From Ottowia thiooxydans DSM 14619 (GTDB lineage Bacteria > Pseudomonadota > Gammaproteobacteria > Burkholderiales > Burkholderiaceae_C), in NCBI RefSeq assembly GCF_000422885.1, contig NZ_AUGX01000001.1, positions 311,238 through 375,237 on the forward strand: a stretch of DNA of 64,000 nt, written 5' to 3'. Of the stretch, positions 38,594 through 55,178 are shown in pieces; position 1 is the first letter of the stretch; the number at the start of each line of letters is the position of its first letter. A program made the position numbers and the translations under genes. A model generated the notes under the pieces. The model worked only from the letters and a program-made list of their open reading frames with translations. It was not told the DNA's origin and ran no database searches.

Positions 38594-38690
38594 GCCGCGG
38601 AGCTGGCTTTGCCAGGCCGCTGGCTGCGTCCCCCCCAAGGGGGGAAGGCGCGCAAGCGACTCAGGGGGGAGTCATTTCCTCAGGGGGGAG
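38594..38690 (-). repeat. R1 two-hairpin repeat, copy 2 (inverted)
   Basis: On the reverse strand: TCCCCCCTGAGTCGC, GCGCGCC, TTCCCCCC-TT-GGGGGG, then CCAGCGGCCTGGCAAAGCC. A partial second CCCCCCTGAGG at 38679-38689 lies inside the end of the neighbouring gene and encodes its last residues and stop. Confidence 0.85.
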
Positions 38691-40024
38691 CTTAATACGC
38701 GGTCCACCATCACACCAGCCTGCCCCAGGTTATTGGCAGGATCACACATGGCTTCGAGCTGTGCCCGCGTCACGTGTTTGTTGATCTCAGGGTGCTCGGC
38801 AAGGATGTCGATCAGAGGGCGATTCTTGGTGATCGATTCGCGGCAGAGGTCATACACCAGATCGTGCGCATACTCACGGCCAATATAGGGGCCCAAGCCC
38901 ATCATGACGGCCTCTGACATCACCAAACCGTTGGTGATGTCAATATTGGCGCGCATGCGCGTTGCATCTACTTCCAGGCCCTTCAATACGAACTTGGTCT
39001 GCTTCAACGCACCGGACATGAGGCAGAAAATCTCAGGTAATGACACCCATTCGATTTCCCAGGGACCGGTAGAGCGTTCATGATCGGCCACCATGGCATC
39101 CATCAGCGCGGCTGCATGCTGACGCACCACAGAGATATTGGCGTGGATGTACAGGCACGAGATGGGGTTGCGCTTTTGCGGCATGGTGGAGGAAGAGCCG
39201 CGGCCAGGCGCATAGGGCTCGAACACTTCCGCCACTTCCGTCTGCATCATCAGCTTGACATCCATCGCTATCTTGCCAAGCGAGCCCCCCACCAAACCGA
39301 GGAACGCACCCACTTCCGCGATGGTGTCTCTCACCGTGTGCCAGGAAATCAGCGGTTGGGCAAGCCCCAGTTCCTGCATCAAACCGGCCTGCGTTTCCAT
39401 GGCGCCTTTTTCGAGCGAAGACAGCGTACCGGATGCACCACCAAACTCCCCCATCAGCACGCGAGGCTTGAGCTGTTGCAGACGTTCACGATGCCGGTCG
39501 ATACCGGCCAGTATGCTGGCCATCTTGTAGCCAAACGTGATGGGAGTGGCCTGCTGCAAGTTGGAGCGGCCAATGATGGGCGTGTCCCTGTATTTTTTTG
39601 CCAGGGCGGCAAGCGCATCACCGATCTCATTGAGATCCTGCTCTACCAATGCCAGGCCTTCGCGCATCTGCAGCACAGCGGCGGTATCGGTGATGTCCTG
39701 GGTGGTGGCGCCCCAATGGCAGTACTCACCCAGCTTGTCACGGCAATTGGCGTTGATCTGGTTAACGACCGCAATGATGGGATACCCAATCTGCTCGGTC
39801 TTCGCTTTGAGTTTGTCCCAGTCAATCATGGACAACTCGCAGTTGCGCACGATTTCGTCCGCGGCCTCTTGCGGGATGATCCCAAGCTTGCCTTGAACCT
39901 TGGCAAGGGCTCGTTCGATGTCCAGGTACTTGGCCGTGCGATTTTCGTCAGACCAGACATCGCGCATGCGAACGTCGCTGAACATGTCGCCGAAGATGCG
40001 TGAATCGATGATCGTGGATGCCAT
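38672..40024 (-). CDS. Fumarase/aspartase-superfamily lyase (PurB/PcaB-like)
   Basis: 450 residues with the superfamily signature GRGSSSTMPQKRNPISC, the other conserved segments YCHWGATTQDITDTA and GRSNLQQATPITFG, and the C-terminal helical domain LDVERL-like replaced by EHPEINKHVTRAQLEAMCDP. It belongs with adenylosuccinate lyase and carboxymuconate cycloisomerase. In this operon (CitE-like lyase, CoA-transferase, hydratase) a catabolic role is likelier than purine synthesis: possibly elimination giving fumarate or an unsaturated dicarboxylate. The last residues SSPLRK and the stop come from an R1 repeat. Gap to the CitE-like gene is 49 bp. Confidence 0.85.
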   Translation of the reverse strand: MASTIIDSRIFGDMFSDVRMRDVWSDENRTAKYLDIERALAKVQGKLGIIPQEAADEIVRNCELSMIDWDKLKAKTEQIGYPIIAVVNQINANCRDKLGEYCHWGATTQDITDTAAVLQMREGLALVEQDLNEIGDALAALAKKYRDTPIIGRSNLQQATPITFGYKMASILAGIDRHRERLQQLKPRVLMGEFGGASGTLSSLEKGAMETQAGLMQELGLAQPLISWHTVRDTIAEVGAFLGLVGGSLGKIAMDVKLMMQTEVAEVFEPYAPGRGSSSTMPQKRNPISCLYIHANISVVRQHAAALMDAMVADHERSTGPWEIEWVSLPEIFCLMSGALKQTKFVLKGLEVDATRMRANIDITNGLVMSEAVMMGLGPYIGREYAHDLVYDLCRESITKNRPLIDILAEHPEINKHVTRAQLEAMCDPANNLGQAGVMVDRVLSSPLRK

Positions 40025-40073
40025 GGAGTCTCCTTGAATATGGAAGCGTTAATCTTTCGTTCTAGAGGGCTGC

Positions 40074-40913
40074 CTAAGAGCCACCTAGAGCCAGCACGCG
40101 CTGGGCTTGAAGTACTACGGGCCTGTCGACCATGCGGCCATCCAGCCGCGCGGCGCCAGGCGATGCGGCATCAGCGGCCAATACCCGGCGAGCCCACTCA
40201 AGCGCCTGGGCGCTTGGAAGCAAGGCTTCGTGAATGAGCCCAACCTGTTTGGGGTGAATGCACAGCTTGGCCCCAAATCCAAAACTGCGCGCCTGCGCCA
40301 AGTCAGCCAGAAGCCGGGCATCGTCATCGAGCTGCGGCGTGACGCCAGCCACTGGTGCAGGTAAATCAGACAGGCGCGATGCGATCACGATGCGGCTGGC
40401 GGCATAGGCGAGCCCGCTGGCGTCAACCGAAATATCCATATCCAGCTCGAGTGCGAAATCCAGCGTACCGAACAGCAATCTCGACACACCAGGCGCGCTC
40501 GCGATCTCATCCACATAAGCTACGCCGCGGGCACTCTCTATCAATGCCAGAACGCGGGCGCCAGGCACACCCGTTGTGACAGCGGCAATCTGCGAGGCGT
40601 TCTCCGCTTTTGGCAAGACGATGGTCGCCGCACCGCAAACTCTCAGCGCGCCCAGATCGTCAGCAAAATAAGATGAACCTGCATCATTAATCCGTACTGC
40701 GACCCGCGAGCGCTGCTCCGATGACGCGGATGCCAGCCATCCAGCGACTATCTCGCGAGCACGGGGCTTGTCGTCAGTGCTCACGGCGTCTTCAAGATCC
40801 AGGATCACGCAGTCGGCACCGGTGGCAAGCGCCTTGGCAAAACGATCTTCCCTTGTACCCGGCACAAACAGGTAGGTGCGCGGCGGCAATTCGCTAGTGC
40901 AGTGATTCATCAT
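40074..40913 (-). CDS. CitE-like CoA-ester lyase (HpcH/HpaI family), probable citramalyl-CoA-type lyase
   Basis: A 279-residue TIM-barrel starting MMNHCTSELPPRTYLFVPGT. Motifs are FVPGTREDRFAKAL, DCVILDLEDAVSTDDKPRAR, VRINDAGSSYFADDL, VLPKAENASQIAAV, LALIESARGVAYVDEIA and AKLCIHPKQVGLIHEAL. The family splits citramalyl-, malyl- or citryl-CoA; (S)-citramalyl-CoA to acetyl-CoA and pyruvate is the last step of itaconate degradation. It follows the CoA-transferase stop by 10 bp. A long upstream extension in the same frame only shadows the CoA-transferase. Confidence 0.87.
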   Translation of the reverse strand: MMNHCTSELPPRTYLFVPGTREDRFAKALATGADCVILDLEDAVSTDDKPRAREIVAGWLASASSEQRSRVAVRINDAGSSYFADDLGALRVCGAATIVLPKAENASQIAAVTTGVPGARVLALIESARGVAYVDEIASAPGVSRLLFGTLDFALELDMDISVDASGLAYAASRIVIASRLSDLPAPVAGVTPQLDDDARLLADLAQARSFGFGAKLCIHPKQVGLIHEALLPSAQALEWARRVLAADAASPGAARLDGRMVDRPVVLQAQRVLALGGS

Positions 40914-40923
40914 GGAGGACTTT

Positions 40924-42117
40924 TTAAACTGCCTGCGCAGTATGCAAAGCCTCAATGTCCGAGCCGGAATACCCCAGCTCAGCCAGAATGGCATCCGTGT
41001 GCTGGCCCAGCGCGGGCACGGCGTCCATGCGGGGTTCGCTGTCCCAGCTACCTGGTGGCAACAGGGCCGGCAGAGGTCCTTGGGGAGAATCCACTGTGGT
41101 CCAACGGCCACGCGCCTGCAATTGAGGATGCGCCCAGACGTCTCGCATTGTGTTGACCTGCGCGTTCGCGATCTGCGCCAGCTCCAGCCGCTCCACGACC
41201 TGAGCAGCCGTGATCGTTGCAAAGGCCTCTACGATGATCTGACGCAGCGCCACGCGCTCTGCCACGCGTTTGAAATTCGCAGTAAAGCGCGGATCTGTGG
41301 CCAGCGCGGGCAGTTGCAGCACCTTTTCGCAAAAACTCACCCACTCACGTTCATTTTGCAGGCCTAGCATCACAGTGCCCCCATCTCCCGCAGGGAACGG
41401 GCCGTAGGGGTAGATAGTGGCATGGCTCGCGCCGGTACGCGGCGGCGGCTCTGCTCCCTCGAAAGCGTAGTACAGAGGGTAGCTGTTCCACTCAGTCAGG
41501 GCTTCCAGCATGGAAATGTCGATGCGCTGGCCTTTTCCGGTTTGGCCGCGTTGAATAACCGCCGCCAGGATGTTGCTGTAGGCGTACATACCCGCAGCGA
41601 TATCGGCAATGGATGTGCCGGCCTTGCTGGGCTCTTCAGGAGTACCTGTGACCGAGACAAACCCCGATTCACTCTGGATCAGGAGGTCGTAGGCCTTCTT
41701 GTCCCGATAGGGGCCAGGATTCACAGGATGATCGCCATAGCCGGATATGTCGCAGACGATCAGCTCGGGTTTGAGCTTGGACAAACGCTCATACCCCATG
41801 CCCAGGCGCGCAGCAGCCCCCGGGGCCAGGTTCTGTACGACTACATCGGCTTTCTCAAGTACCAGCCGTTCAAGAATTTTGGCCGCTTCTGGCGACTTGA
41901 CATCCAGCGTCAAGCTTTCCTTGGAGCGATTGGTCCAGACGAAGTGCGAGGCCAAGCCGCGTACGCGCTGATCGTAGCCACGCGCAAAATCGCCTGCACC
42001 AGGCCGCTCGATCTTGATGACCCGCGCCCCCATATCCGCCAGTTGCCGCGTGGCGAAAGGCGCCGCAATGGCGTGTTCGAGGGTGACGACCGTAATACCT
42101 TTTAATGGCTGCAGCAT
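40924..42117 (-). CDS. CaiB/BaiF family (class III) CoA-transferase
   Basis: 397 residues starting MLQPLKGITVVTLEHAIAAP. Typical features are TRQLADMGARVIKIERPGAG, NRSKESLTLDVKSPEA, AYDLLIQSESGFVSVTGTPE with the likely catalytic Asp, and GQRIDISMLEALTEW. It would move CoA from succinyl-CoA or another donor to a carboxylic acid, the first step in itaconate or mesaconate breakdown. It is flanked by the hydratase and the CoA-ester lyase, the gene set seen in itaconate degraders. Start 42117 removes a 26-codon extension without family residues. Confidence 0.9.
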   Translation of the reverse strand: MLQPLKGITVVTLEHAIAAPFATRQLADMGARVIKIERPGAGDFARGYDQRVRGLASHFVWTNRSKESLTLDVKSPEAAKILERLVLEKADVVVQNLAPGAAARLGMGYERLSKLKPELIVCDISGYGDHPVNPGPYRDKKAYDLLIQSESGFVSVTGTPEEPSKAGTSIADIAAGMYAYSNILAAVIQRGQTGKGQRIDISMLEALTEWNSYPLYYAFEGAEPPPRTGASHATIYPYGPFPAGDGGTVMLGLQNEREWVSFCEKVLQLPALATDPRFTANFKRVAERVALRQIIVEAFATITAAQVVERLELAQIANAQVNTMRDVWAHPQLQARGRWTTVDSPQGPLPALLPPGSWDSEPRMDAVPALGQHTDAILAELGYSGSDIEALHTAQAV

Positions 42118-42158
42118 GGCAATGTGTCTTGTTTTAAGTATGTTCAGCGCAACCAGAT

Positions 42159-43016
42159 TCAGCGCAACACGGCGGTGGCATCCATGGTCAACCATCCGTC
42201 ATGGTCGGACGCCCAGAGGCGAATGGTCTTGCCATCTTCCTGCGGTTGGCCATGCACATGGAAAGCGTTCAGATCGAATGTGGGCCGCTGCGCCTTGAAA
42301 CGGAAGCTGGCAATGTCGGCATCCGGCCGCTGGCGGCGCAGCAGGTCCATGAGCAGCGTGGCGATGAGCGGACCGTGCACGATCAAGCCGGGGTAGCCTT
42401 CGACCTCCGTGACGTACTTTCGGTCGTAATGGATGCGGTGACCGTTGAAGGTCAGAGCTGAATACCTGAAGAGCAACACGTCATCTGGCACGATTTCTCG
42501 CTTCCAGGCCCCCTGCTCTGCAGCCTGCGGAGGTGGCGCCACATCGTCGGGCCGCTGCGCTTCCCGGTAAACGATGTCGTGAAATTCGATCAAGGCAGGC
42601 TCACTCGCTCCGTTGCAGCGGACTTCATGCCGAACCTTCACAAACACCAACTTTCCGGTACGCCCTTCCTTGGTGCTCACATCCGCAATGGTGGAAGTTC
42701 GCTCTACTTTGTCGCCCACGCGAATGGGCGAGCGAAATTCAAACTGACTACCAGCCCACATGCGGCGCGGCAGGGGCACGGGTGGAAGGAATCCACCGCG
42801 TTTGGCATGACCATCAACCCCAATTTCCGATTGCCGATACATTGGCAAAAAGTACAGCCAATGCCACAAATGAGGTAGCGGGGAGCCGGCGGGCAAAGCC
42901 GTCGCGGGGTAATCCAGCGTGGCGTTCAACGCCACGACAGGCGTAGGAGTGATGGTGTCCTGGAGAATCTCGCTCCGCCCAACCCAGGCATTCAACGAAT
43001 CAGCTGTGGTGTTCAT
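42159..43016 (-). CDS. Double-hotdog acyl-CoA hydratase (MaoC/FAS1-like; itaconyl- or mesaconyl-CoA hydratase type)
   Basis: 285 residues made of two hotdog halves. The C-terminal half carries YSALTFNGHRIHYDRKYV, the hydratase motif with catalytic Asn/His and Asp, and YPGLIVHGPLIATLLMDLL. The N-terminal half (LPPVPLPRRMWAGSQFEF, IRVGDKVERTSTIADVSTKE) looks like the FAS1-like dehydratase domain of mesaconyl-C4-CoA hydratases. It would hydrate itaconyl- or mesaconyl-CoA to citramalyl-CoA. First gene of its operon; a putative LysR site lies about 90 bases upstream. Confidence 0.87.
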   Translation of the reverse strand: MNTTADSLNAWVGRSEILQDTITPTPVVALNATLDYPATALPAGSPLPHLWHWLYFLPMYRQSEIGVDGHAKRGGFLPPVPLPRRMWAGSQFEFRSPIRVGDKVERTSTIADVSTKEGRTGKLVFVKVRHEVRCNGASEPALIEFHDIVYREAQRPDDVAPPPQAAEQGAWKREIVPDDVLLFRYSALTFNGHRIHYDRKYVTEVEGYPGLIVHGPLIATLLMDLLRRQRPDADIASFRFKAQRPTFDLNAFHVHGQPQEDGKTIRLWASDHDGWLTMDATAVLR

Positions 43017-44132: not shown

Positions 44133-45134
44133 TCAATCTCTCGGGGATGAAGCCGGTCGCGCAACGGCGTTCACGTAAGCGACCGACTGCTCTATAGCCC
44201 GGGCAGCTGCCGGCAGATCGTTGGCCTGATTCAAAAAACCGTGAGGTAAGGCATGGGCAACGGCAAGCTCGGCAGGAACACCACAATCCTTGAGTACGCG
44301 ATAAAGATCTATGGAGTCGTCATACAGCGGATCAAGCTCCGCAGCCAGGACGTAGGTGGGAGGCAACCCGCGAAGCTCGCCTTCCAGGGGGAAGATTCGC
44401 CAGTCGCTACCCGATGATGTGGGCATGTACGCCTCAAGATAGCGTGCCTGAGCTTGATTGCTCAGCCCAAAACGGCCATCCCCATAAGCTTCGAAAGAGC
44501 CGCCCTCTCGGTGAGGCCCGTAGCAGCCGTAGTAAAGGATCAAGGCCGATATGTCCGATGTGGCGTCTTCATCTCTTCGGCGCATGGCTTCAACCAGCGC
44601 CAAGTTGGCGCCTGCAGAGTCGCCGGCAAGAATTAATTCACCGCCTTCTTTCAGCTTGCTCGAAGGGCCGCAGAGAAAATCAATCACCGCACGGACATCC
44701 TCTAGAGCTGCGGGAAATGGGTATTCGGGCGCCAGCGAGTACTCCACGCCACAAACCGGCGCTTGCGCTGCGTACGCCAGATGACGCAAAACGGTGTCAT
44801 GCGTCAAGTTGGAGCCAACACACCAACCTCCCCCATGCAAATACACAATAGGAGTGCACTGAGCATGGTCAGCGCTGGGGTAATACCAGCGCAGCTTGAC
44901 GAGGCGCCCGTTGGTCAACAGGTCCTCATTCACCACTCGGTGCATGGAAACGCGGTTGGCGTGCGTCCGTATGCGCGCCTCCTCCAGCAGCTTGCGTGAC
45001 TCGGGAAAAGGCACGGCATATCGATCAACTTTCGCAACGCCCTCGGCTTGCTGCTCAAGCAAGCGCGCCAGAGCTGGATCCAATCGTTGTGCGTATGGCT
45101 GCCCAGTCCAAGGATTGACCGCTGGGGCTGGCAC
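44133..45134 (-). CDS. Alpha/beta hydrolase, hormone-sensitive-lipase type
   Basis: 333 residues from a GTG at 45134, 4 bp after the RidA stop; the frame remains open upstream but that part overlaps ridA. The HSL family motifs are HGGGWCVGSN (oxyanion hole) and AGDSAGANLAL (nucleophile Ser), with Asp in LAAELDPLYDD and His in ALPHGFLNQ completing the triad. It hydrolyses short esters or amides. Last gene of the eleven-gene diiron/ABC operon; the physiological substrate is unknown. Confidence 0.87.
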   Translation of the reverse strand: MPAPAVNPWTGQPYAQRLDPALARLLEQQAEGVAKVDRYAVPFPESRKLLEEARIRTHANRVSMHRVVNEDLLTNGRLVKLRWYYPSADHAQCTPIVYLHGGGWCVGSNLTHDTVLRHLAYAAQAPVCGVEYSLAPEYPFPAALEDVRAVIDFLCGPSSKLKEGGELILAGDSAGANLALVEAMRRRDEDATSDISALILYYGCYGPHREGGSFEAYGDGRFGLSNQAQARYLEAYMPTSSGSDWRIFPLEGELRGLPPTYVLAAELDPLYDDSIDLYRVLKDCGVPAELAVAHALPHGFLNQANDLPAAARAIEQSVAYVNAVARPASSPRD

Positions 45135-45138
45135 CTGG

Positions 45139-45528
45139 TCAGGCTTCCTTGAAGGCGACCGCCTCAATTTCAAATAGCCATTCCGGCTTTGCGAGTGCTT
45201 TTGCCACAACCAAGGTGGCGGCAGGCCTATGTTCACCAAGGTATTGCTTGCGCACTGCGTTCACTGCGGCCAAATCATCCGAATCGAGCAGGTAGGTGGT
45301 GATTTTCACGAGGTCTTGCACCCCCATGCCGGCATCTTCAAGAATGGCGACGAGATTGCTCCAAGCCGCATCGGCCTGGGCCTGAACGCCAGAAACCAAT
45401 GCGCCCTGTTTGTCTACGCCAATTTGCCCGGCGACATACAGCCACTGCCCAGGTCCACTGGTACGAACCGCATGCGAGTACGCACCTACGGGCGGGGCGA
45501 TGGAGGGTGAATTGCGGAATTCGGTCAA
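45139..45528 (-). CDS. RidA/YjgF family protein, non-archetypal
   Basis: 129 residues. The fold is clear: PPVGAYSHAVRTSGPGQWLYVAGQIG, shown here by PVGAYSHAVR and YVAGQIGVDKQG, then QADAAWSNLVAILEDAG and FEIEAVAF. The substrate-binding Arg found in true RidA (as in PARSCV) is replaced in HRPAATLVV, so it may belong to a Rid subgroup with another role. RidA proteins hydrolyse reactive enamines/imines such as 2-aminoacrylate; in pyrimidine (Rut) catabolism a relative works with an oxygenase and an alpha/beta hydrolase. It lies between two hydrolases. Confidence 0.88.
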   Translation of the reverse strand: MTEFRNSPSIAPPVGAYSHAVRTSGPGQWLYVAGQIGVDKQGALVSGVQAQADAAWSNLVAILEDAGMGVQDLVKITTYLLDSDDLAAVNAVRKQYLGEHRPAATLVVAKALAKPEWLFEIEAVAFKEA

Positions 45529-45539
45529 GACGGTCTCCT

Positions 45540-46445
45540 TTAAGTTTCTGAAAGATGTGGCGAAAGCAATTGCTCCAGCACGCGCTCGAAGAGTTCAAAA
45601 CCGGGGCTGGCCAGCTCTTCAAGAATGTCGAAATGGGTGCGGCCCGGCACAATCTGCAAGCTTGCGGGAATACCCAGTCCTTTGACGGTATCCACGAAAT
45701 CTCGGCTTTGGCCAATAAAGCCTTCAGTCTCCAGCCCTCCTACCGCCACCAGAAATTGGGCGCCGTAAAAACGCGTGAGAACGCTCGGGCTCATGCGCAA
45801 CGCCTCATCCGGCGTCATGCGCACGTCGTGGTTAACAGTAGTGAGCAACAGTGGTGGAAGTGAAAATACGCCACTCACTGGAACGACGGAAACCAAGGGA
45901 TGTCCACCAAGCTGATCAGGCGGCGTACCGCTCAGCATGGCGGCAAGTTGGCCACCAGCAGAGTGCCCGGAAATGCATACTCTGTGCGGATCGAAATTGA
46001 GTTCGGCGGCCTGCGCGTTCAAAAGCCGTACCGCGCTGCAAACCTGCTCAAAGATATCAGTCACGCGGACTTCAGGGGCCAACTGGTAGCCCAACATCGC
46101 CACGGCAATGCCACGCTTCACATACTCATGAGCAATAAAGCTGAACAGACGGTGATCCAGCGCTCGCCAGAATCCCCCGTGAATGAATATGAGAAGCGGC
46201 GCTGGAGCCTGCGGCGCTCCTGCATCTGCACCAGCTGGTTTTAGCGGAGGAAACCAGTCGATCGCGCAGCGCTCGGATTCACCATAGGAAATGCTTTTCC
46301 AGCCTTCTGCCTGGGCGCGGAACTGCTCGCTTCGGGTGCGATAGTCGGCATAGACGGAATCGCGCTCGGGATGCCGAGGACGCAGGCTGTAGTTAAGCTC
46401 CTCACGCTGCACCAACTCCAGAATGCGGTATGAACTAACCTCCAA
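45540..46445 (-). CDS. Alpha/beta hydrolase, kynurenine-formamidase-like
   Basis: 301 residues. Motifs are LIFIHGGFWRALD, the nucleophile elbow ISGHSAGGQLAAML, and near the end PGRTHFDILEEL. The N-terminal ELNYSLRPRHPERDSVYADY resembles arylformamidase-type hydrolases, which remove formyl groups from amines or hydrolyse small esters. The start overlaps livF by 11 bases; the next gene, RidA-like, follows by 11. A deformylase or ring-amide hydrolase role after the diiron oxidation is inference. Confidence 0.87.
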   Translation of the reverse strand: MEVSSYRILELVQREELNYSLRPRHPERDSVYADYRTRSEQFRAQAEGWKSISYGESERCAIDWFPPLKPAGADAGAPQAPAPLLIFIHGGFWRALDHRLFSFIAHEYVKRGIAVAMLGYQLAPEVRVTDIFEQVCSAVRLLNAQAAELNFDPHRVCISGHSAGGQLAAMLSGTPPDQLGGHPLVSVVPVSGVFSLPPLLLTTVNHDVRMTPDEALRMSPSVLTRFYGAQFLVAVGGLETEGFIGQSRDFVDTVKGLGIPASLQIVPGRTHFDILEELASPGFELFERVLEQLLSPHLSET

Positions 46446-47148
46446 GATAAGCTTCCTTTACCCGCGCATCGGCGAGAAGTTCTTTCGCGTTGCCTGAAAG
46501 AACCAAGCGACCACTCTCAATGACATACCCGTAGTCGGCATGCCGTAGCGTGACCTCGCTGTTCTGTTCGCAAACGAAAATGGTCATGCCCTTGCTCGAG
46601 AGCTCAGAGAGCGTCTCGAAGATCTGTTTGACCACCAAAGGTGCAAGCCCCATGGAAGGCTCGTCAAGCAGCAGCATCTTGGGCGCAGACATCAGGGCAC
46701 GCCCAATGGCAAGCATCTGCTGTTCGCCGCCGGATAGCGTTCCGGCTGCTTGGGGCAGGCGCTCCTTCAGCTTGGGAAACAGTTCCAGGACGAACTCGAG
46801 CTGGGTGTGATAGTGCGTGGTCTCGCGTTTGATCAAGTACTGAAACGCTCCCATCTCCAGGTTTTCGGCCACAGTGAGCGGCGCAAAAACTTTGCGCCCT
46901 TCGGGCACCAGCGCCATGCCTCTGCGGACCACGCGCTCAGCACCGAGACCGGAGATGTCTTGCCCTGAGTGAAGAATCTCGCCGCGAGTGGGTTTCATCA
47001 AGCCGCTGACGGTTCTCATCACGGTGGACTTACCAGCGCCATTGGCACCAAGAAGCGCGGTCACTGAGCGCTGTTCAATTCTGAGATTCAGCCCGTGCAA
47101 AACATCCCCGTTCCCATAGGAGGCATGAAGATCACGTATCTCAAGCAT
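46435..47148 (-). CDS. livF: Liv-type ABC transporter ATP-binding protein (LivF-like)
   Basis: 237 residues with Walker A GANGAGKST, the ABC signature LSGGEQQMLAIGRAL, Walker B MLLLDEPSMGLAP and the His loop in FVCEQN (His replaced by Gln, usual for LivF). It powers import through LivHM. It overlaps livG by 8 bases and the following hydrolase by 11. Confidence 0.92.
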   Translation of the reverse strand: MLEIRDLHASYGNGDVLHGLNLRIEQRSVTALLGANGAGKSTVMRTVSGLMKPTRGEILHSGQDISGLGAERVVRRGMALVPEGRKVFAPLTVAENLEMGAFQYLIKRETTHYHTQLEFVLELFPKLKERLPQAAGTLSGGEQQMLAIGRALMSAPKMLLLDEPSMGLAPLVVKQIFETLSELSSKGMTIFVCEQNSEVTLRHADYGYVIESGRLVLSGNAKELLADARVKEAYLGG

Positions 47149-47911
47149 GAACGGACTCCTCTCCCAAGTAGGCGCTGATCACTTCAGGGTTCGAAGAAAT
47201 CTCCTTGGGCGTGCCTTCGGCCAGGTAGCAACCGCTGCGCATAACCAGAATTTCATGGCAGAGGCTCATCACCATGCGCATGTTGTGCTCCACCAGCACC
47301 ACGGTGACACCCAACTTATTCACTTCCCGAATCATGCTGACCACAGGCGCCTGCTCAGATGCAGGCACTCCTGCGATGGGCTCGTCAAGCATCAGGATCT
47401 GGGGTTCCGCCGCCAGGGCCCGTGCGATTTCCAGCAGTTTCGACTCTCCGAAGCTCAAGTCTCCGGCAAGCCTGGTTGCACGGTCAGCGAGGCCCATCAA
47501 CCTCAGCTTCTCGTAGGCCACTTCCTCAATCTTGATCTCTTCCTTGTGCACACTGGGCATGCCGAGAAGCGCCTTCAGAAAGCCGGTGCGGGCTCTAGGG
47601 TGGTAGCCGATCATCACGTTCTCGATCAGGCTCAGGTCGGGAAATATCTGCAAATTCTGAAACGTTCGTGCGAGACCCAATGCCGCGCGCTCGTAGGGTT
47701 GAAGCGTCTGGATCTCTTGTCCTTGCAGCCTGATGGTGCCGGCGCTCAGTTTCTGAATTCCAGCAATGGCATTGAAAAGGGTTGTTTTTCCCGCGCCATT
47801 AGGCCCGATGATGCCCTTGATCTGTCCGGCCTGCACGTGCATGCTCAAGCCGTCAACGGCATGCAGGCCACCAAAACTCACTCGTACGTTTTCAACGTCC
47901 AACAGTGCCAT
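47141..47911 (-). CDS. livG: Liv-type ABC transporter ATP-binding protein (LivG-like)
   Basis: 256 residues with Walker A GPNGAGKTT, the LivG-specific RTFQNLQIFPDLSLIENVM, signature LSFGESKLLEIARAL, Walker B ILMLDEPIAGV and VLVEHNMRMVM. The start MALLDVENV at 47911 overlaps livM by 20 bases. Second ATPase of the importer. Confidence 0.93.
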   Translation of the reverse strand: MALLDVENVRVSFGGLHAVDGLSMHVQAGQIKGIIGPNGAGKTTLFNAIAGIQKLSAGTIRLQGQEIQTLQPYERAALGLARTFQNLQIFPDLSLIENVMIGYHPRARTGFLKALLGMPSVHKEEIKIEEVAYEKLRLMGLADRATRLAGDLSFGESKLLEIARALAAEPQILMLDEPIAGVPASEQAPVVSMIREVNKLGVTVVLVEHNMRMVMSLCHEILVMRSGCYLAEGTPKEISSNPEVISAYLGEESVHA

Positions 47912-48950
47912 TGTGAGACTCCGTTTGTGGTTTGTGCATAGGCTTGCTTTCACCGGCATTGGCCTTGGTCGACTTGTGTCTGTACCAGCGCACGCATCGC
48001 TGCCCCAGGGAAGAAGCGCCCCCCGGAAGATAGAGCAGCACCAGGATCATTCCGATGCCGAAGATCAGCAGCTCTGCGTCCTGAAAACGCCTCAGCAACT
48101 CAGGCACACCGGTGAGAACGGCCGCACCAAAGACCGGCCCCCAAAGCGATCCAACCCCGCCAAGAGCCACCATCACCACCATAAGAACCGAGCCAAAGAA
48201 GCCAAAGGTTTCAGGAGAGGCAAACTGGTTGAAGTGGGCGTACATGGCACCCGCAAGCCCAGCCATGCTTGCGGAGAGACTGAATGCCACCACTTTGGCG
48301 CGGAACGTATTGATGCCAAGGGTGTTGGCCCCAATCTCACTCCCCTCAATGGCACGCAGCGAGCGCCCGGACACACTGCAAAACAGGTTGATGAGACACC
48401 ACATGACCAGCGCCCCCATCAACCACGCGAGCCAGAAAAACCGGCCTGGAGTGTCCAGGGCGTACCCGAACATTTCGTAGGGAGCTATGGCGGCAAGACC
48501 GTTGGGCCCTCCCGTCAGAGGAACCAACTCCACAAACATGACGGAAAGAATGCCGCTGAAGCCCAAAGTCCCCATGGAGAGATAGGGCCCGCGTAAGCGC
48601 AGCGTAGCCCACCCGACAAATGCAGCGACCCCGCCAACGACCAAGATCGCGGCAAACGTTCCAATCCAGGGAGAAATATTCCAGCGCGTATTCAGCACGC
48701 CGCTCACATAGGCGCCCAGACCATAAAACGCCGCGTGAGCCAACGACACCTGCCCAGTCCAGCCCATGATCACGTTCAGGCTGGCGATCAAGATGAGGTT
48801 GATAAAGAAGTACACCCCCAGGCTCAGCACATACTCATTGGGAGCCAGCAATGGCCAAAACAGCGCCAGCGCCCAGACTGCGGCCAGTGTCCAGCGATGG
48901 CGGGCACGCCGATCGCCGATTGGAGAAGTGGAGGAAGTCAGCGTAGACAT
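47892..48950 (-). CDS. livM: Liv-type ABC transporter permease (LivM-like)
   Basis: 352 residues with about nine hydrophobic segments and the LivM motif GWTGQVSLAHAAFYGLGAYV, followed by LGGVGSLWGPVFGAAVL in the ATPase-contact region. The C-terminal 30 residues are polar. It forms the inner-membrane channel with LivH. It starts 3 bases after the livH stop. Confidence 0.92.
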   Translation of the reverse strand: MSTLTSSTSPIGDRRARHRWTLAAVWALALFWPLLAPNEYVLSLGVYFFINLILIASLNVIMGWTGQVSLAHAAFYGLGAYVSGVLNTRWNISPWIGTFAAILVVGGVAAFVGWATLRLRGPYLSMGTLGFSGILSVMFVELVPLTGGPNGLAAIAPYEMFGYALDTPGRFFWLAWLMGALVMWCLINLFCSVSGRSLRAIEGSEIGANTLGINTFRAKVVAFSLSASMAGLAGAMYAHFNQFASPETFGFFGSVLMVVMVALGGVGSLWGPVFGAAVLTGVPELLRRFQDAELLIFGIGMILVLLYLPGGASSLGQRCVRWYRHKSTKANAGESKPMHKPQTESHNGTVGR

Positions 48951-48953
48951 GTC

Positions 48954-49826
48954 TTACACCTTTTCCACTTGTCCGCGCCCGAGCAAGCCGTTTGGCCACT
49001 TCACGAGTACGAGCAACAACACCACGAATGCAACCGCGTCTTTGAAGTGCGATGAAATCATGCCGCCACCGAAACTCTCAGCCAAGCCGAGCAGCAGGCC
49101 GCCAATCATCGCGCCCGGCAAGCTACCCAGCCCGCCAAGCATGGCCGCGCAGAAAGCTTTGAAGCCAAGAATGGTTCCGTGGTCAAAAGAGGTGAGCGTC
49201 AGCGGCGTGACGATCACGCCCGCAACGGCACCAACCCCTGCCGCAAGAATGAACGAAAGACTCATTGTGAGCCTGGGGCTGATGCCTACGAGCGCTGCCG
49301 CTTCGGGCTGCGCAGCGGCGGCGCGCATGGCCTTGCCGAGGACAGTCCGGTTGAAGAAGTAGCCTGCTCCAGCCATCACCAGCGCAGCAATGCCTATGAT
49401 CCAAAGCGATTGGGTCTCCAGCATGGCACCCGCCAGGGAAATGGGACCGGTTTCAGAGAAAGAAGGCAGGCCGGCCGGGCTCTTCCCGAGCACCAACATG
49501 ACCATGCTTTTGGTGCAGATGGCAATCGCGATTGTCAAAATCGTGATCGACATAGGGCTGGGTTTTTTGAGTTTTCGAACGATGAACCGTTCGGAAAGAC
49601 CACCCACCGCCATGGCAACCACTACGGCCACGAGGAACGCGATGGCCAGCGGCACTTTGGCGGCATACAGCATGGCAGCCACCATTCCGCCCAACATCAC
49701 CCACTCCCCTTGCGCGAAGTTGAGCGCGCCGGTGCTCTTGAAAATGATGTTGAAGCCGAGTGCCACCATGGCATAAATGCTTCCGGTGCTGAGGCCTGCG
49801 AACAGCAACTGGAGGGTGTCGCTCAT
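48954..49826 (-). CDS. livH: Liv-type ABC transporter permease (LivH-like)
   Basis: 290 residues, about eight membrane segments, with LLFAGLSTGSIYAMVALGFN, FAQGEWVMLGG and the conserved AMLGGLGSLPGAMIGGLLLG. Partner of LivM. It follows the second ferritin-like gene by 23 bp, so transporter and enzyme genes are in one operon. Confidence 0.92.
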   Translation of the reverse strand: MSDTLQLLFAGLSTGSIYAMVALGFNIIFKSTGALNFAQGEWVMLGGMVAAMLYAAKVPLAIAFLVAVVVAMAVGGLSERFIVRKLKKPSPMSITILTIAIAICTKSMVMLVLGKSPAGLPSFSETGPISLAGAMLETQSLWIIGIAALVMAGAGYFFNRTVLGKAMRAAAAQPEAAALVGISPRLTMSLSFILAAGVGAVAGVIVTPLTLTSFDHGTILGFKAFCAAMLGGLGSLPGAMIGGLLLGLAESFGGGMISSHFKDAVAFVVLLLVLVKWPNGLLGRGQVEKV

Positions 49827-49849
49827 AAACCAGTCCCTTTGTGAACGGG

Positions 49850-50782
49850 TTACAAAAGACCCAGCACAGGATGCTGCGGTGGGGTGACGACAAAGCCCAA
49901 TTGCTCCAGACGGCCAAAGGCGTTTTGCAGATACTGCTTGAACGCACCCTGCTCACTTTCAGGAGTGGCAGCGCCCAGCCCTGCTTCTGCTGCCAGCGTG
50001 GCGGCCGCGGCATCGGGCTGTGTGTCGATCTGTGTGGACAAGGTGGGGATGTGGTAGCCCGAGAATGCGACCTCCTCGATCCAGGCACTGATCTGTTTGG
50101 AGATCATTTCCTTGGTTGCCATATCCATGTGCGCGGCCCGCTCCTCCAGATACAACCATCCGAACGACGCATGCCGCTCCTTGGCTTGAACCACCTGCTC
50201 CAGAATCTGCGCAGCGATGGGCTCTCTCGCGTTCCCGGCATAGAGGCGAGCTAACTCCAGCTCCAGGCCGTCCGCCATGGCGCATTGCGTGGCGACATAC
50301 GCATCCAGGGATTGCGTGGCGTTCAATGCGTCGCGGTAGAGAGTACGGTTGATGACTTCCTCCCAGGCAGAATTGGCGGGTCTGCTCTGGTAGCCGCCTA
50401 AAGCCTTGGCGTATCGGTGAAAGCACTCGACATGCCAGGCTTCTTCAGTGTTGCGGACGGTCAGGAAATACTTGGGGTCTGACTCGCGGTCCAACTCCAG
50501 GCAAAAGCGGATAAGCAAAGCCGGTGTTTCTGCCAGCCCGGTGTACTCAAGCCAGGCTCTGCGGCTCCATATCTGCTGCGCCGCCTCTAACTGCCCTGAA
50601 GAATAAGCGGAAAGATCGAGCTTGCTCCAATCGATGTCCTTGCCTGGACTCCAGTGTTTCTGCTTTCCGGTTTCATACAGTTCCCGGATCGACTGAATGG
50701 ACCGATGCAGATCCAGTGGAAAGCGGCGCTCTACCATGAGCGGGGTGGGCGTCAGAGTGACGACGGGTGCATGTGCCTGCAT
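49850..50782 (-). CDS. Ferritin-like protein, diiron-site-degenerate paralogue
   Basis: 310 residues, paralogous over its length to the protein at 50819-51754 (RFPLDL, IWSRRAWLEY, RFCLE, GGY, FGW). Four-helix ferritin-like fold. Helix A E79/E85 and helix B E114-A-W-H117 are kept. Where the paralogue has E169/E170 in helix C this has D171/G172, and helix D has K201-E-R-H204 instead of E-x-x-H. It probably cannot hold a complete carboxylate diiron centre and may serve as a structural partner, as non-catalytic subunits do in other diiron oxygenases. Family and reaction not recognised. Confidence 0.75.
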   Translation of the reverse strand: MQAHAPVVTLTPTPLMVERRFPLDLHRSIQSIRELYETGKQKHWSPGKDIDWSKLDLSAYSSGQLEAAQQIWSRRAWLEYTGLAETPALLIRFCLELDRESDPKYFLTVRNTEEAWHVECFHRYAKALGGYQSRPANSAWEEVINRTLYRDALNATQSLDAYVATQCAMADGLELELARLYAGNAREPIAAQILEQVVQAKERHASFGWLYLEERAAHMDMATKEMISKQISAWIEEVAFSGYHIPTLSTQIDTQPDAAAATLAAEAGLGAATPESEQGAFKQYLQNAFGRLEQLGFVVTPPQHPVLGLL

Positions 50783-50818
50783 GATGTGCTTTTCTCCTGA
50801 AGTCTTGCGCTACTGCGA

Positions 50819-51754
50819 TCAGAATTCCCCGTCGATCTTGGGGTGGCGAAACATGGGAAGCTGGATGCCCCATGACTCCTCCATCTGACGGCGAATCCTT
50901 TGGACAGAGGCCACGAAGACAGGCTTTTCCAGCTCTTCCACCGTCGCGCCCAGCCCGGCTTGCCAAGTGATGCGGTCAGTCTCCACCTCCGCGGACTTGG
51001 CCGCGCCCTCCGTGGCTAACCAGGCGCTGTGATAGCCATTGAGTTCCACCTTCTCGATCATCAGCACAACCGCGTCTTCCACGGCCTTCAACTCGGTTTT
51101 GGAGAGATGCGGGATGCGGTTGTCCATGAACGCCCAGCCAAAAGCACAATGGCGCACCTCGTCGCGCATGATGCTCTTGAGCACCTGGCGCGCCACTGGG
51201 TTCGGCGTGATGTCAATCAGGTGGCGAAACACATCGAATGCAATTTCTTCGGCCGCGCAGACCAACGCTGCAATGACACCTTCCAGGGGCACACTAGGAT
51301 CAAGGGCCATCTTGCGCACCCCGTGGGTGGCTATGGCTCCTTGAAACTCCGATTGTTCCGGTTGCTGGATGTAGCCGCCCAGCCTCTCCGCCATACGGAA
51401 ACACACCTCAGCATGGCGCGACTCTTCCTGAGTACGGATGGTGAAAAAGAGCCGCGTATCAGGTGGGCAGTTTTCCTGGCAGAACCGGATCTGTAAAGCA
51501 GGCGACTCAGAGATAGCCCCGTACTCACCCCAGGCACGCCGGCTCCAGTACATGCGCGCGGCATAAAGTTGCTCATCGGTGTAGACCGATGGGTCCAGCA
51601 GAGACCACTCGATATCCGTGGCCGGATTCCACTGATTGTTCGTGGCGGAATGGAACAGATTGCGCACGCGCGGTACGGCAATGTCCAGATCCAGTGGGAA
51701 ACGATTTTCGGGCGCATCCAGAATGGTGGGCGCTACGGCGAAGGTTGCACTCAT
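50819..51754 (-). CDS. Ferritin-like diiron carboxylate protein, likely oxygenase/oxidase
   Basis: 311 residues with a full set of diiron ligands: E77 or E83 in helix A (RRAWGEYGAISESP), E111-S-R-H114 in helix B, E169/E170 in helix C (VCAAEEIAFDVF) and E199-V-R-H202 in helix D (MRDEVRHCAFGW). Length is like AurF/CmlI-type N-oxygenases or small aromatic diiron oxygenases, but I cannot place it in a named family. It lies 24 bp after the substrate-binding protein gene and 36 bp before its degenerate paralogue. It probably oxidises the imported compound; no dedicated reductase or ferredoxin gene is in the operon. Confidence 0.78.
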   Translation of the reverse strand: MSATFAVAPTILDAPENRFPLDLDIAVPRVRNLFHSATNNQWNPATDIEWSLLDPSVYTDEQLYAARMYWSRRAWGEYGAISESPALQIRFCQENCPPDTRLFFTIRTQEESRHAEVCFRMAERLGGYIQQPEQSEFQGAIATHGVRKMALDPSVPLEGVIAALVCAAEEIAFDVFRHLIDITPNPVARQVLKSIMRDEVRHCAFGWAFMDNRIPHLSKTELKAVEDAVVLMIEKVELNGYHSAWLATEGAAKSAEVETDRITWQAGLGATVEELEKPVFVASVQRIRRQMEESWGIQLPMFRHPKIDGEF

Positions 51755-51778
51755 GTCGATCTCCTTGCAGTGCGTCGA

Positions 51779-52945
51779 TTACTTGTAGTCCGCGAGCCGG
51801 AAGCGACCGTCTTCGTACTTCAGCAAGACCAGATCGGATTTCGACAGACCGGAATGCTGAGTAGAGGAGAAGTTGAACGTTCCGCCAACGCCGTGGTAGT
51901 TCTGAACGCCTCGTATGGCATCGCGCACCTTGGCCTTGTCGGTATTGCCTTTTTCCAGCGCCATCTTGGCCAGATAGATGGCGTCGTAAGTTTGCGCGGC
52001 GAACTGATTCGGGCGGCGCTTGAAGCGCGTCTCGAATGCCTTGTTGAGGGTGAGAATCCGGGCCTTGACAGGGTCGCTATCCGGAAGGTCTTCGCCCACA
52101 GGAAATTTCACGCTGACCAACAAAACGCCCTTGGCAGCATCTCCTGCAAGGTCCATATAGCGTTTGTCTACGAAGCCGTAGCTATGGATAAACGGAATGT
52201 TGCCCATGCCCAGCGTTTTGGCCTGCCTCATCGCTACAACACCAGCAGGGGTGACCGTCCAGCAAACCAGGGCTTGCACTCCCGCAGCCTTCAGCTTGTT
52301 GATTTGCGGTGTCATATCCGTATCGCTTGGATTGAATGACTCGTAGCTCACATCCAGCCCGCGCTTAGGCGCCACCTTCTTCCATTGTTCGACAGCGCTC
52401 TGCCCAAAACCAGAAGAATCCGCCAGCATGCCGACTTTCTTGATCTTGTTTTTGTCGAAATAGTCGGCAATGCGTTCAACCGCCTGATCGTCATCCACGG
52501 TGGATTTAAATGTCCAAGGGCGCTCGTCTACAGGCGTGACAATTTGCATGCTGCCTTCGGTGGAGATGAACGGGACCTGCGCCTTCTCAGTCAGTTGCAG
52601 CATTGCAATGGCCATGCCGCTCATGTTGCCGCCGCCGACGATCATCTCAACCTTGTCCTGAGTCAGCAGGCGACGTGCCGCGCTCAGTCCTTTCTGCGTC
52701 TGGCTTTCAGCGTCGTAGAAGACCCATTCGATCTTCTTGCCGTTCACACCGCCCTTGGCGTTGATTTCATCCAAGGCAAGCTCCATCCCCGCCTTCATGT
52801 CGTCACCCAGAAAAGCAGCCGGCCCGGTGACCGAGAGAACAGAACCGATCTTGTAGGTGGATTGAGCCTTGGCTGACGTGGACAGACCCGTCATCAAAAG
52901 ACCAAGCAACTTCAGAGTCGTACGTTTGGAAAAAGATGTATTCAT
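51779..52945 (-). CDS. Liv-type ABC transporter substrate-binding protein
   Basis: 388 residues. A signal peptide covers about 1-28 (LMTGLSTSAKA-QS). The mature start YKIGSVLSVTGPAAFLGDDM and LALDEINAKGGVNGKKIEWV are standard for type I periplasmic-binding proteins of the Leu/Ile/Val family, which also take amides, aromatics and urea. The ligand is not predictable. It is the first structural gene after the GntR regulator (48-bp gap). Confidence 0.92.
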   Translation of the reverse strand: MNTSFSKRTTLKLLGLLMTGLSTSAKAQSTYKIGSVLSVTGPAAFLGDDMKAGMELALDEINAKGGVNGKKIEWVFYDAESQTQKGLSAARRLLTQDKVEMIVGGGNMSGMAIAMLQLTEKAQVPFISTEGSMQIVTPVDERPWTFKSTVDDDQAVERIADYFDKNKIKKVGMLADSSGFGQSAVEQWKKVAPKRGLDVSYESFNPSDTDMTPQINKLKAAGVQALVCWTVTPAGVVAMRQAKTLGMGNIPFIHSYGFVDKRYMDLAGDAAKGVLLVSVKFPVGEDLPDSDPVKARILTLNKAFETRFKRRPNQFAAQTYDAIYLAKMALEKGNTDKAKVRDAIRGVQNYHGVGGTFNFSSTQHSGLSKSDLVLLKYEDGRFRLADYK

Positions 52946-52993
52946 GGCAGTCGAGGGTTGGTGGTGGGGAAATGGGCAAGCGATGTCCGTCGA

Positions 52994-53848
52994 TCAATCG
53001 CTGACTTCGGTCGAAAGCGTCCCGCTAACGGTGTTGGCGGGATGAGATGCGAAGTGAGCGCTTGAAAGTGCGACCGAGAAGGTGTGGCGCACGGATTTGC
53101 CAGGCGAGTAGGACCGCCCGCACATCACAGGAAGACCTTCTTTGCAGAAATAAACGAGCTCCCTCACCATGACCGCTGATTCGGGCGGAACATTGAGCAG
53201 AGTGCCGAGCTCGGCTCCAGCGATCACAGCTTCAATACTGTTTTGAGCGTGAGACAGACTCACCCTGCGCGAGAGAAGATCTAAAAGCGAGTGCCGCGTG
53301 GCTTCCTGCTCGGAAATCGAGCCTGCCAGGTCAGGATGGATATAGCGGTAGTCGTAGGACACGGTAGCGTCGCCGCTCCTGCGCTGCCGTTCAATATGAA
53401 GTACGTCCTGCCCAGCACTCACACCCAGATGGAAACCCACGCTTTCCGGGCACGGCAGGATGGCGAAGCTACGAAGGCTGAAGGTGAGCGGGCGTCCCCC
53501 CTTCTCCCACTGATTCTGAAAGTCCATCTGAGGGCCAAAGATCTCATCGAACTTTTCAGTATTAACAAAAGTACCTTGCCCTTGAACCCGGCGCAGAAGT
53601 CCCTGAGTGACGAGTTCCTGCACTGCTTGCCGCACCGTATAGCGGCTGACGCCAAACATGGCACCAACTTCTTGATCGGAATAGAAAAGCCCGCCAGGTA
53701 GCGCTTCGGTTTGGATGATGGCTTGTAGCCGACGCTTGAGCTGCGCATAGAGCGGCAGAGCGGAATCTCGGTCAAGCCCGAGCTCTTGCCCGGCTTGATC
53801 GGTACTGCCCGGGCGCCCAGGGCTCTGCGTTTTATCTGTATAGGACAT
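52994..53848 (-). CDS. GntR family (HutC-type) regulator of the diiron/ABC operon
   Basis: 284 residues starting MSYTDKTQSPGRPG. GntR HTH at about 30-105 (LPLYAQLKRRLQAIIQTEAL, GAMFGVSRYTVRQAVQELV, LLRRVQGQGTFV) and a UTRA effector domain (about 130-270: IERQRRSGDATVSYDYRYIH, AVMVRELVYF). An eight-codon upstream extension exists. A 12-bp perfect palindrome lies in the divergent promoter region. First gene of the operon, so it probably represses its own transcript. Confidence 0.9.
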   Translation of the reverse strand: MSYTDKTQSPGRPGSTDQAGQELGLDRDSALPLYAQLKRRLQAIIQTEALPGGLFYSDQEVGAMFGVSRYTVRQAVQELVTQGLLRRVQGQGTFVNTEKFDEIFGPQMDFQNQWEKGGRPLTFSLRSFAILPCPESVGFHLGVSAGQDVLHIERQRRSGDATVSYDYRYIHPDLAGSISEQEATRHSLLDLLSRRVSLSHAQNSIEAVIAGAELGTLLNVPPESAVMVRELVYFCKEGLPVMCGRSYSPGKSVRHTFSVALSSAHFASHPANTVSGTLSTEVSD

Positions 53849-53948: not shown

Positions 53949-55178
53949 ATGCCCATTGGACTTATCGATTTCCCTAATACGCGGCTCCAGGGAGTGAGCC
54001 CTCTGAGCTTCGCGGAGCCTGCCTCGCTGAATGAGTTCGATCTGGTGATCTGGCGGCCTGCCGCCATCGCCAACGTCTATTCAAGAGACCACTCCTTCGA
54101 GGGCACGCCGGTACTGGATGTGCGAGATTCACAGCGGGTGTTCAGCCATATCCGTTACTGGCGCACCGAGTTCGAGGAATTCCTGGGTCGCGGCGGCACG
54201 CTCGTGATGCTGGCCCCGGGCTTCACCAAGATGGGGCTGCATACGGTGCAGGACGTCGTTCCGTTCGACGTGATCGAAGCCCTGCCGGGCTATAGAAGCC
54301 TAGGCCACCAAGCGTGCGAACCTTCCGCGTTGCGATGTGATGCAGGCGAGCCGTTTCGGCAGTTTTTCGACGCCTTCAGTGAGCAATTTGTAGCCTGCGC
54401 CACGTTGACGCCAGGTGAGGCGCAAGCCATTGCATCTGTTTCAGATAGCGACGGAGTCTGCGCAGTCTATGAATACCATCACCCGGGCCGCATTCTCGTT
54501 ATTCCGGAGTTGCGGGAAACCGCCTCTCCGGCGGCCCTCGCCACCATAGTGGATGCACTGGACGACCTCAGCGCCCGCCTCCGGCTGGACGCGCGCGTTT
54601 CAGGTTACGTGGGAGCTCGCCCAGTGGTGACGGAGAGAGAACGCGCACTACGTCAGCAACTGGCACAAACGTCGCAGGAGCGCCGCGAGTTGCAGTCCAG
54701 AGAAGCCGCATTGCTCAAGGAGATCTCCGACATCGCATTCTTTGGTCAACTAGAGCATGGTGACCGCGTAGGCGTTATCAACGCAGCGCTGCAGGTACTG
54801 CATGCCCTGGGCGCCTATGTGCAACATGGCATTGGATCCACCGGCACATTGGTGTTTGAGCACCTGGGCCATGCGTGTGTGCTGGTGCTGCTCGAAGAAG
54901 CGGACCTCACTTCCGCCAAGGAGATCACCGAGACTCTCAGTGAGCGAGCACAGCCCTGGGCCAATGAGCTGAACCGGGAGGTGGCGCCCATTGCATTCAT
55001 CGCCGGAGCCAATGCCGAGAACATCATGCGTCTGGCTACCGCCAAAAGCACAAACGCTGCGGTCATCTCATGGCTGACAGGAGCCACCCTGCAGATCGCC
55101 TACAAGGAAAGAAACTTTGATTTCCTGGATGAAGTCCGGGAGCAAGATGCGGCGCTGACACACCCAGCACGCCCGTAA
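53949..55178 (+). CDS. Hypothetical protein divergent from the diiron/ABC operon
   Basis: 409 residues from an ATG preceded by AAAGGTG (53934-53940); a GTG 12 codons upstream is the alternative. The N-terminal 230 residues look like an alpha/beta domain (FDLVIWRPAAIANVY, FLGRGGTLVMLAPGFTKMG, YEYHHPGRILVIPEL). Residues about 235-270 form a charged coiled coil (RERALRQQLAQTSQERRELQ). The C-terminal 140 residues (VINAALQVLHALGAYVQ, TLVFEHLGHACVLVLLEEAD) form a second alpha/beta domain, loosely like nuclease-type folds that follow coiled coils. I do not recognise the family. It shares the promoter region with gntR, which suggests co-regulation. Confidence 0.75.
   Translation: MPIGLIDFPNTRLQGVSPLSFAEPASLNEFDLVIWRPAAIANVYSRDHSFEGTPVLDVRDSQRVFSHIRYWRTEFEEFLGRGGTLVMLAPGFTKMGLHTVQDVVPFDVIEALPGYRSLGHQACEPSALRCDAGEPFRQFFDAFSEQFVACATLTPGEAQAIASVSDSDGVCAVYEYHHPGRILVIPELRETASPAALATIVDALDDLSARLRLDARVSGYVGARPVVTERERALRQQLAQTSQERRELQSREAALLKEISDIAFFGQLEHGDRVGVINAALQVLHALGAYVQHGIGSTGTLVFEHLGHACVLVLLEEADLTSAKEITETLSERAQPWANELNREVAPIAFIAGANAENIMRLATAKSTNAAVISWLTGATLQIAYKERNFDFLDEVREQDAALTHPARP

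Follow-up and report, generated by a model that had tools for sequence, protein, structure and literature searches.

The question raised by this locus is why a bacterium should encode, side by side and within a single operon, a complete ferritin-like diiron protein and a paralogue of it in which part of the metal-binding site has been replaced. The operon lies in a stretch of 64,000 nucleotides (the window, by which the whole of the DNA analysed is meant) from Ottowia thiooxydans DSM 14619, contig NZ_AUGX01000001.1, where it occupies window positions 44133-53848. The eleven genes that an initial annotation of the sequence had proposed for it were all recovered as open reading frames on the minus strand, in the order gntR, SBP (substrate-binding protein), A, B, LivH, LivM, LivG, LivF, abh1, rid and HSL, so that gntR stands first and HSL last. 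The intergenic gaps, from gntR downward, are 48, 24, 36, 23, 3, -20, -8, -11, 11 and -101 base pairs (bp). The last of these values depends on a TTG start for HSL at 45239, under which the earlier description of the gaps as overlaps or spacings of at most 48 bp holds; codon-usage gene calling favours an HSL product of 309 amino acids (44133-45062), and with that start the spacing between rid and HSL is 76 bp and the description does not hold.

The operon and its A/B pair are real and maintained, and the gene set, the gene order, the co-inheritance of the genes and the ligand status of the two diiron-type proteins are established as far as they can be read from sequence. The interpretation favoured here, tentatively and at somewhat under even chances, is that of an inducible catabolic module which would import a nitrogen-containing compound, oxidize it with an A/B heteromer and hydrolyse the resulting amide. 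The comparative evidence comes from 35 loci that carry a close relative of A, collected by a one-genome-per-species search using peptide patterns of the window's A. Because they were located through these patterns, the loci are those of close relatives, with A homologues 60-95% identical to that of the window; they include near-copies (four Achromobacter), and two of them, L009 and L025, correspond to contigs from genomes that were also sampled as G773 and G002.

Ligand residues and predicted folds of the pair

A (50819..51754, minus strand) is a complete diiron ferritin-like protein and is presumed to be the catalytic subunit. Its ligand residues are E77, E111xxH114, E169/E170 and E199xxH202, which together with the predicted fold supply the dinuclear carboxylate set of ferritin-like proteins (E, ExxH, E, ExxH in a four-helix core), and E77, E110, E111, H114, E169, E170, E199 and H202 are invariant in all 38 aligned A sequences. 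B (49850..50782, minus strand), the presumed structural or regulatory subunit, has E79, E114xxH117, D171/G172, K201 and H204 at the aligned positions. Since D171/G172 and K201 replace E169/E170 and E199 of A, two of the four carboxylates are lost and B falls outside the ferritin-like ligand set. Among 35 B sequences, a count that omits the truncated L009 copy, E79 is conserved in 33, E113 and E114 in all, H117 in 25 (with Q in 8) and H204 in 34, and the replacement residues D171, G172 and K201 are found in 34, 30 and 31, respectively. The conservation of the replacements themselves indicates that B is a maintained ligand-poor partner and not a decaying copy. The residues are as the initial annotation had described them, and the pattern runs throughout the 38 A and 35 B sequences.

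The AlphaFold2 models of the two proteins (predicted local distance difference test, pLDDT, of 88.7 for A and 91.4 for B) have folds like those of R2lox, R2 and PaaA/PaaC. When the models are compared with Foldseek, R2lox is the best match of each (for A, template modelling (TM) scores of 0.62-0.69 and an E-value of 5.8e-5; for B, an E-value of 1.2e-4), followed by R2 proteins and PaaA/PaaC. Profile searches of the PDB sequences with A, with B and with the family of the divergent gene upstream of the operon returned weak or short matches only. In Pfam, B matches no family, and the sole match of A is to AurF (PF11583), with 28.8 bits and an E-value of 8.6e-7; this score is under the gathering cut-off of 29.6 bits, and A was not accepted as a member of that family.

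Conservation of the pair and comparison with known systems

In all 35 fetched loci A is followed directly by B on the same strand, as it is on a Paraburkholderia chromid, and the neighbourhood survey thus bears out the proposal that the two are conserved neighbours. Separation of the pair in most genomes, an observation named in advance as speaking against the proposal, was not seen within the A clade. In the phylogenetic tree A forms one clade and B another (supports 100/98 and 99/100), and four relatives of A that lack a neighbouring B fall outside both, one of them (L044) with a very long branch. Across 23 loci, the distance matrix of A has a correlation of 0.87 with that of B, which is by this measure the best partner of A, the other seven genes giving values of 0.70-0.82.

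The B-less relatives have neighbourhoods of their own. The source genome (7.05 Mb) carries a second A-like gene on its contig 50 (L044:7223-11609), where a LysR regulator, the 27% identical relative of A, an abh1-like hydrolase and a TctC binding protein are found together; at L046:9585-10559 and L047:4614-6613, relatives with 36-38% identity lie near an Amidohydro_2 enzyme, again an oxygenase with a hydrolase.

These relatives bear on a competing explanation, in which A works on its own, as an AurF-like N-oxygenase of an imported amine, B is no subunit but a separate sensor, chaperone or factor for metal insertion, and abh1 and HSL deacylate before or after N-oxidation. The presence of a hydrolase beside B-less relatives with 27-38% identity (abh1-like in L044, Amidohydro_2 in L046 and L047) speaks for it, as does the fact that AurF is the only Pfam match of A, and so does the lack of an identified dedicated reductase among the gene families recurring in at least three loci; AurF- and CmlI-type diiron N-oxygenases are stand-alone enzymes without a dedicated reductase. 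The explanation is nevertheless an unlikely one. The resemblance of A to the AurF/CmlI/DnfA N-oxygenases consists in a weak match below the Pfam cut-off which B does not share; AurF is not among the top 50 folds listed for A, which comprise R2lox, ribonucleotide reductase R2 and PaaA; and B adjoins A in every locus, with a distance pattern closest to that of A. The gene set of the DnfABC cluster also differs from that of this operon (PMC11440038).

A close known parallel for the pair is provided by PaaA and PaaC, a catalytic and a structural subunit of one fold (PMC4498308). A and B resemble them in that one of two same-fold proteins has the diiron ligands and the other is ligand-poor, as judged here from sequence and predicted folds. 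They differ in being about 33% identical to each other, whereas PaaA and PaaC are 17% identical (PMC4498308), in having no recognised PaaB bridge or PaaE reductase among neighbours that were partly scanned, and in giving no sign of a substrate bound to coenzyme A (CoA). PaaA has, close to its active site, a lysine that connects three acids (PMC4498308), and by analogy K201, which is set among conserved acids in B, may act in a similar manner.

R2lox is the nearest solved fold for both A and B, with TM scores of up to 0.69, but its sequence is only 15-20% identical to theirs. It carries an Mn/Fe cofactor and a Tyr-Val ether cross-link, and A and B are compared with it by fold alone; R2lox is not known to have a ligand-poor partner or to belong to a catabolic operon. 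The shared closeness of A and B to this fold would suit a view in which they form an R2lox/R2-like oxidase pair with a protective or regulatory task (the handling of radicals, ligands or aldehydes), accessory to an operon concerned chiefly with the uptake and hydrolysis of an ester or amide, for which the hydrolases and importer could suffice as a pathway. This view is distinctly improbable, since L031 and L033 retain A, A, B and abh1 where the importer is missing, which argues that A/B and a hydrolase are the more stable core, and since no locus is without A and B, whereas rid and HSL can be missing, although the loci were selected by A.

Hydrolases, the Rid protein and the proposed reaction

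The gene abh1 (45540..46445, minus strand) encodes an alpha/beta hydrolase related to kynurenine formamidase, and its product is presumed to be the amidase or formamidase of the pathway. Its nearest PDB sequences are Lipase 1 (7.4e-34), an esterase-like protein and then kynurenine formamidase (3.8e-16), and the motif set characteristic of the last (HGG-x-W, GHSAG and H271) is kept in at least 90% of 32 aligned sequences. Of the 33 loci that extend as far as its slot, 31 have the gene; the exceptions are L020, which has an amidase-signature enzyme there, and L042, which has only HSL. On the Paraburkholderia chromid (L050) the order gntR-SBP-A-B-LivHMGF-rid is likewise followed by an amidase-signature enzyme, no match to abh1 was found in that locus, and the amidases of L020 and L050 are 53% identical. 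The replacement of abh1 by an amidase-signature enzyme argues for an amide bond in the substrate of this step, an argument that rests on these two replacements. The initial annotation had envisaged the hydrolysis of enamine, formyl or ester products, and hydrolysis of a formyl or amide type of product accords with the occupants of the slot; the enamine step does not stand, for reasons given below. The proposed order, oxygenation and then cleavage by a formamidase-like alpha/beta hydrolase, recalls the sequence of tryptophan dioxygenase and kynurenine formamidase, from which the present case differs in the class of the oxygenase. The second hydrolase, of HSL type (44133..45062, or from the TTG start at 45239, minus strand; Pfam Abhydrolase_3, 3.7e-49), is found in 9 of the 35 loci.

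The rid gene (45139..45528, minus strand; Pfam Ribonuc_L-PSP, 2.7e-27) is present in 20 of the 35 loci, and two of the 15 without it end before its slot. The catalytic arginine of RidA and Rid1-Rid3 (Arg105 of Escherichia coli TdcF) is absent from all 21 rid orthologues, in which the position is occupied by alanine (7) or serine (14); Glu120 is kept in all 21 and Tyr17 in 20, the remaining sequence having a gap. Loss of the arginine nearly abolishes imine hydrolysis, arginine-less Rid subfamilies are thought to act otherwise, and about 10% of RidA proteins have serine at this position, the role of the arginine-less proteins being described as unknown (PMC4433059). The product of rid was consequently not accepted as a RidA-type imine hydrolase, and the enamine hydrolysis that had been attributed to it is unsupported because the arginine is missing throughout. 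The operon does place such an arginine-less Rid protein in the setting of a defined pathway.

An analogy had also been drawn with the Rut pyrimidine pathway, in which an oxygenase, a hydrolase and a Rid gene occur together. A Rut-like route with a RidA enamine deaminase would agree with the occurrence of rid, between the hydrolases, in 20 loci, but the absence of the arginine from every orthologue and of rid itself from 15 of the 35 loci (the two that end early included) make it very improbable. The operon further differs from Rut in its oxygenase, a diiron pair where Rut has a flavin enzyme, and in its Liv-type importer. Since the Rid protein lacks its arginine and the genes scanned included no recognisable RutA-like flavin oxygenase, the analogy is weak.

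For the catabolic module favoured here, we infer the heteromer, its regulation, the reaction and the class of substrate as follows. A GntR/HutC-type regulator would control the operon, and SBP together with LivHMGF would take up a small nitrogen-containing molecule. A and B would form a heteromeric O2-activating oxygenase with its dinuclear metal site in A, B being a partner of the same fold whose site is replaced by a conserved cluster of acids and a lysine, and which could have a structural or gating role like that of PaaC. Oxidation would leave a product bearing an amide open to hydrolysis (an N-formyl or N-acyl group, say, produced by ring opening or N-dealkylation), to be cleaved by abh1 or, in some genomes, by the amidase-signature enzyme, and in some genomes the freed acid would probably enter CoA chemistry. 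A bolder form of this proposal, to which we give rather little credence, is that the pair founds a new class of diiron oxygenases, made of two subunits and needing no reductase. The acid/lysine pseudo-site of B would then gate or tune the metal site in A, an imported N-heterocycle or amide would be opened oxidatively or N-dealkylated, and the amide hydrolase would act next, as would an arginine-less Rid protein whose activity is new. The favoured reading would itself add a simple case of two genes, without reductase and bridging parts, to the catalytic/non-catalytic pairing of multicomponent diiron oxygenases. A search of the open-licence literature, which did not extend to subscription journals, turned up no described pathway of this composition, in agreement with the initial annotation.

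Several observations weigh against the catabolic module as outlined. The distance correlation of B with LivG is 0.86, so that co-inheritance alone could explain the value for A and B, and the existence of B-less relatives in L044-L047, 27-38% identical to A and outside its clade, implies that the type of reaction need not involve B. Neither in the operon nor among the families found in at least three loci could a reductase, a ferredoxin or a bridging subunit be recognised (clusters c11, c13 and c14 being unassigned, and the neighbours partly scanned), which leaves the electron supply unexplained. There is no importer beside L031 and L033, and the hydrolase slot of L042 holds HSL alone. The closeness of abh1 to lipases makes an ester substrate and an esterase possible. 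Finally, the creatininase-family gene that lies between B and LivH in L043 counts, as a further hydrolase, in favour of the module, but a similar frame in L022 appears degraded by eye, which suggests that the creatininase enzyme is dispensable. Between the creatininase gene and LivH of L043, frames resembling a transposase remnant were noted by eye (L043:7587-8386).

Importer, regulator, distribution and neighbouring genes

The periplasmic binding protein SBP (51779..52945, minus strand) is of Liv/HAAT type (Pfam Peripla_BP_6, 1.7e-65) and is encoded directly upstream of A in 33 of the 35 loci. Its nearest binding proteins in the PDB are 3sg0 and 4dqd, which bind aromatic keto acids. The permeases LivH (48954..49826) and LivM (47892..48950) and the ATPases LivG (47141..47911) and LivF (46435..47148), all on the minus strand, were assigned from sequence and conserved order, and the set is complete in 31 of the 35 loci; the contigs of L009 and L034 end early, and L031 and L033 have no such genes beside them. 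In these last two, tandem A genes (L031:3409-5307 and L033:2746-4670) are followed by B and abh1, and an EamA-type transporter adjoins the locus of L031. Since the package includes its own importer and binding protein, the substrate should be findable by screening the binding protein.

The regulator gntR (52994..53848, minus strand) is of the HutC-type GntR/UTRA kind (Pfam UTRA, 2.9e-24; GntR, 6.2e-12) and is the probable repressor of the operon; against the HutC model of NCBIfam it scores 98 bits, short of the cut-off of 220. An orthologue lies upstream of SBP in 30 of the 35 loci by the filter applied here, with a weak one in L042. The 8-mer CTAGACAA/TTGTCTAG occurs just upstream of gntR (within about 160 bp) in 11 of 32 loci, a count not set against shuffled sequence, being present once each in L013, L014, L016, L017, L018, L020, L024, L026, L040 and L043 and twice in L022. 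It was not found upstream of gntR in the window, and is a possible operator, to be taken as a lead only. On the opposite side of gntR is a gene of no recognised family (53949..55178, plus strand) with a middle part that looks like a coiled coil by eye; it matches no Pfam family and has no significant match in the PDB (best E-value 0.021), and a homologue stands divergently upstream of gntR in 14 of the 35 loci, which makes it a frequent companion of the operon.

The gene cluster is rare but well conserved. All 35 loci are labelled Pseudomonadota or its classes. In the order sample, 5 of 399 genomes match A at 1e-20, the operon being present only in the window genome and G002, and B orthologues were found only in the two genomes with the operon's A; 1 of the 398 genomes in the phylum sample (the window genome) matches at 1e-10, and 2 of the 29 genomes in the genus sample are positive for A. 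Among 72,556 plasmid records, the single one with A and B adjacent is the Paraburkholderia chromid. Such patchy occurrence is typical of accessory catabolic clusters. One locus, L011, comes from Variovorax JS1663, and degradation of N-nitroglycine was considered as a function and rejected: NnlA, which is known to carry it out, is a heme enzyme, and no such operon is named in the part of the source consulted (PMC11035981). The scanned neighbours of L011 are unrelated.

In five loci (L010, L013, L014, L016 and L017) the operon is followed on the same strand by genes for a short-chain dehydrogenase/reductase, an acyl-CoA dehydrogenase and an APH-type kinase, and an acyl-CoA synthetase gene lies near the operon in L013, L014, L016 and L017 and directly after rid in L021. 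These neighbours hint that the freed acid is CoA-activated in the genomes concerned, four of the loci with CoA genes being near-copies from one genus. In the window itself, downstream of HSL, genes for a MaoC-like hydratase, a class III CoA-transferase (CaiB), a RipC/CitE-like lyase and a fumarase-superfamily lyase stand in a row at 38674-43016 on the minus strand; all are under the NCBIfam equivalog cut-offs, and they resemble an itaconate-type route. The MaoC, CaiB and CitE genes may have a connection with the operon. A homologue of the MaoC-like gene product (50%) is also encoded near the operon in L022.

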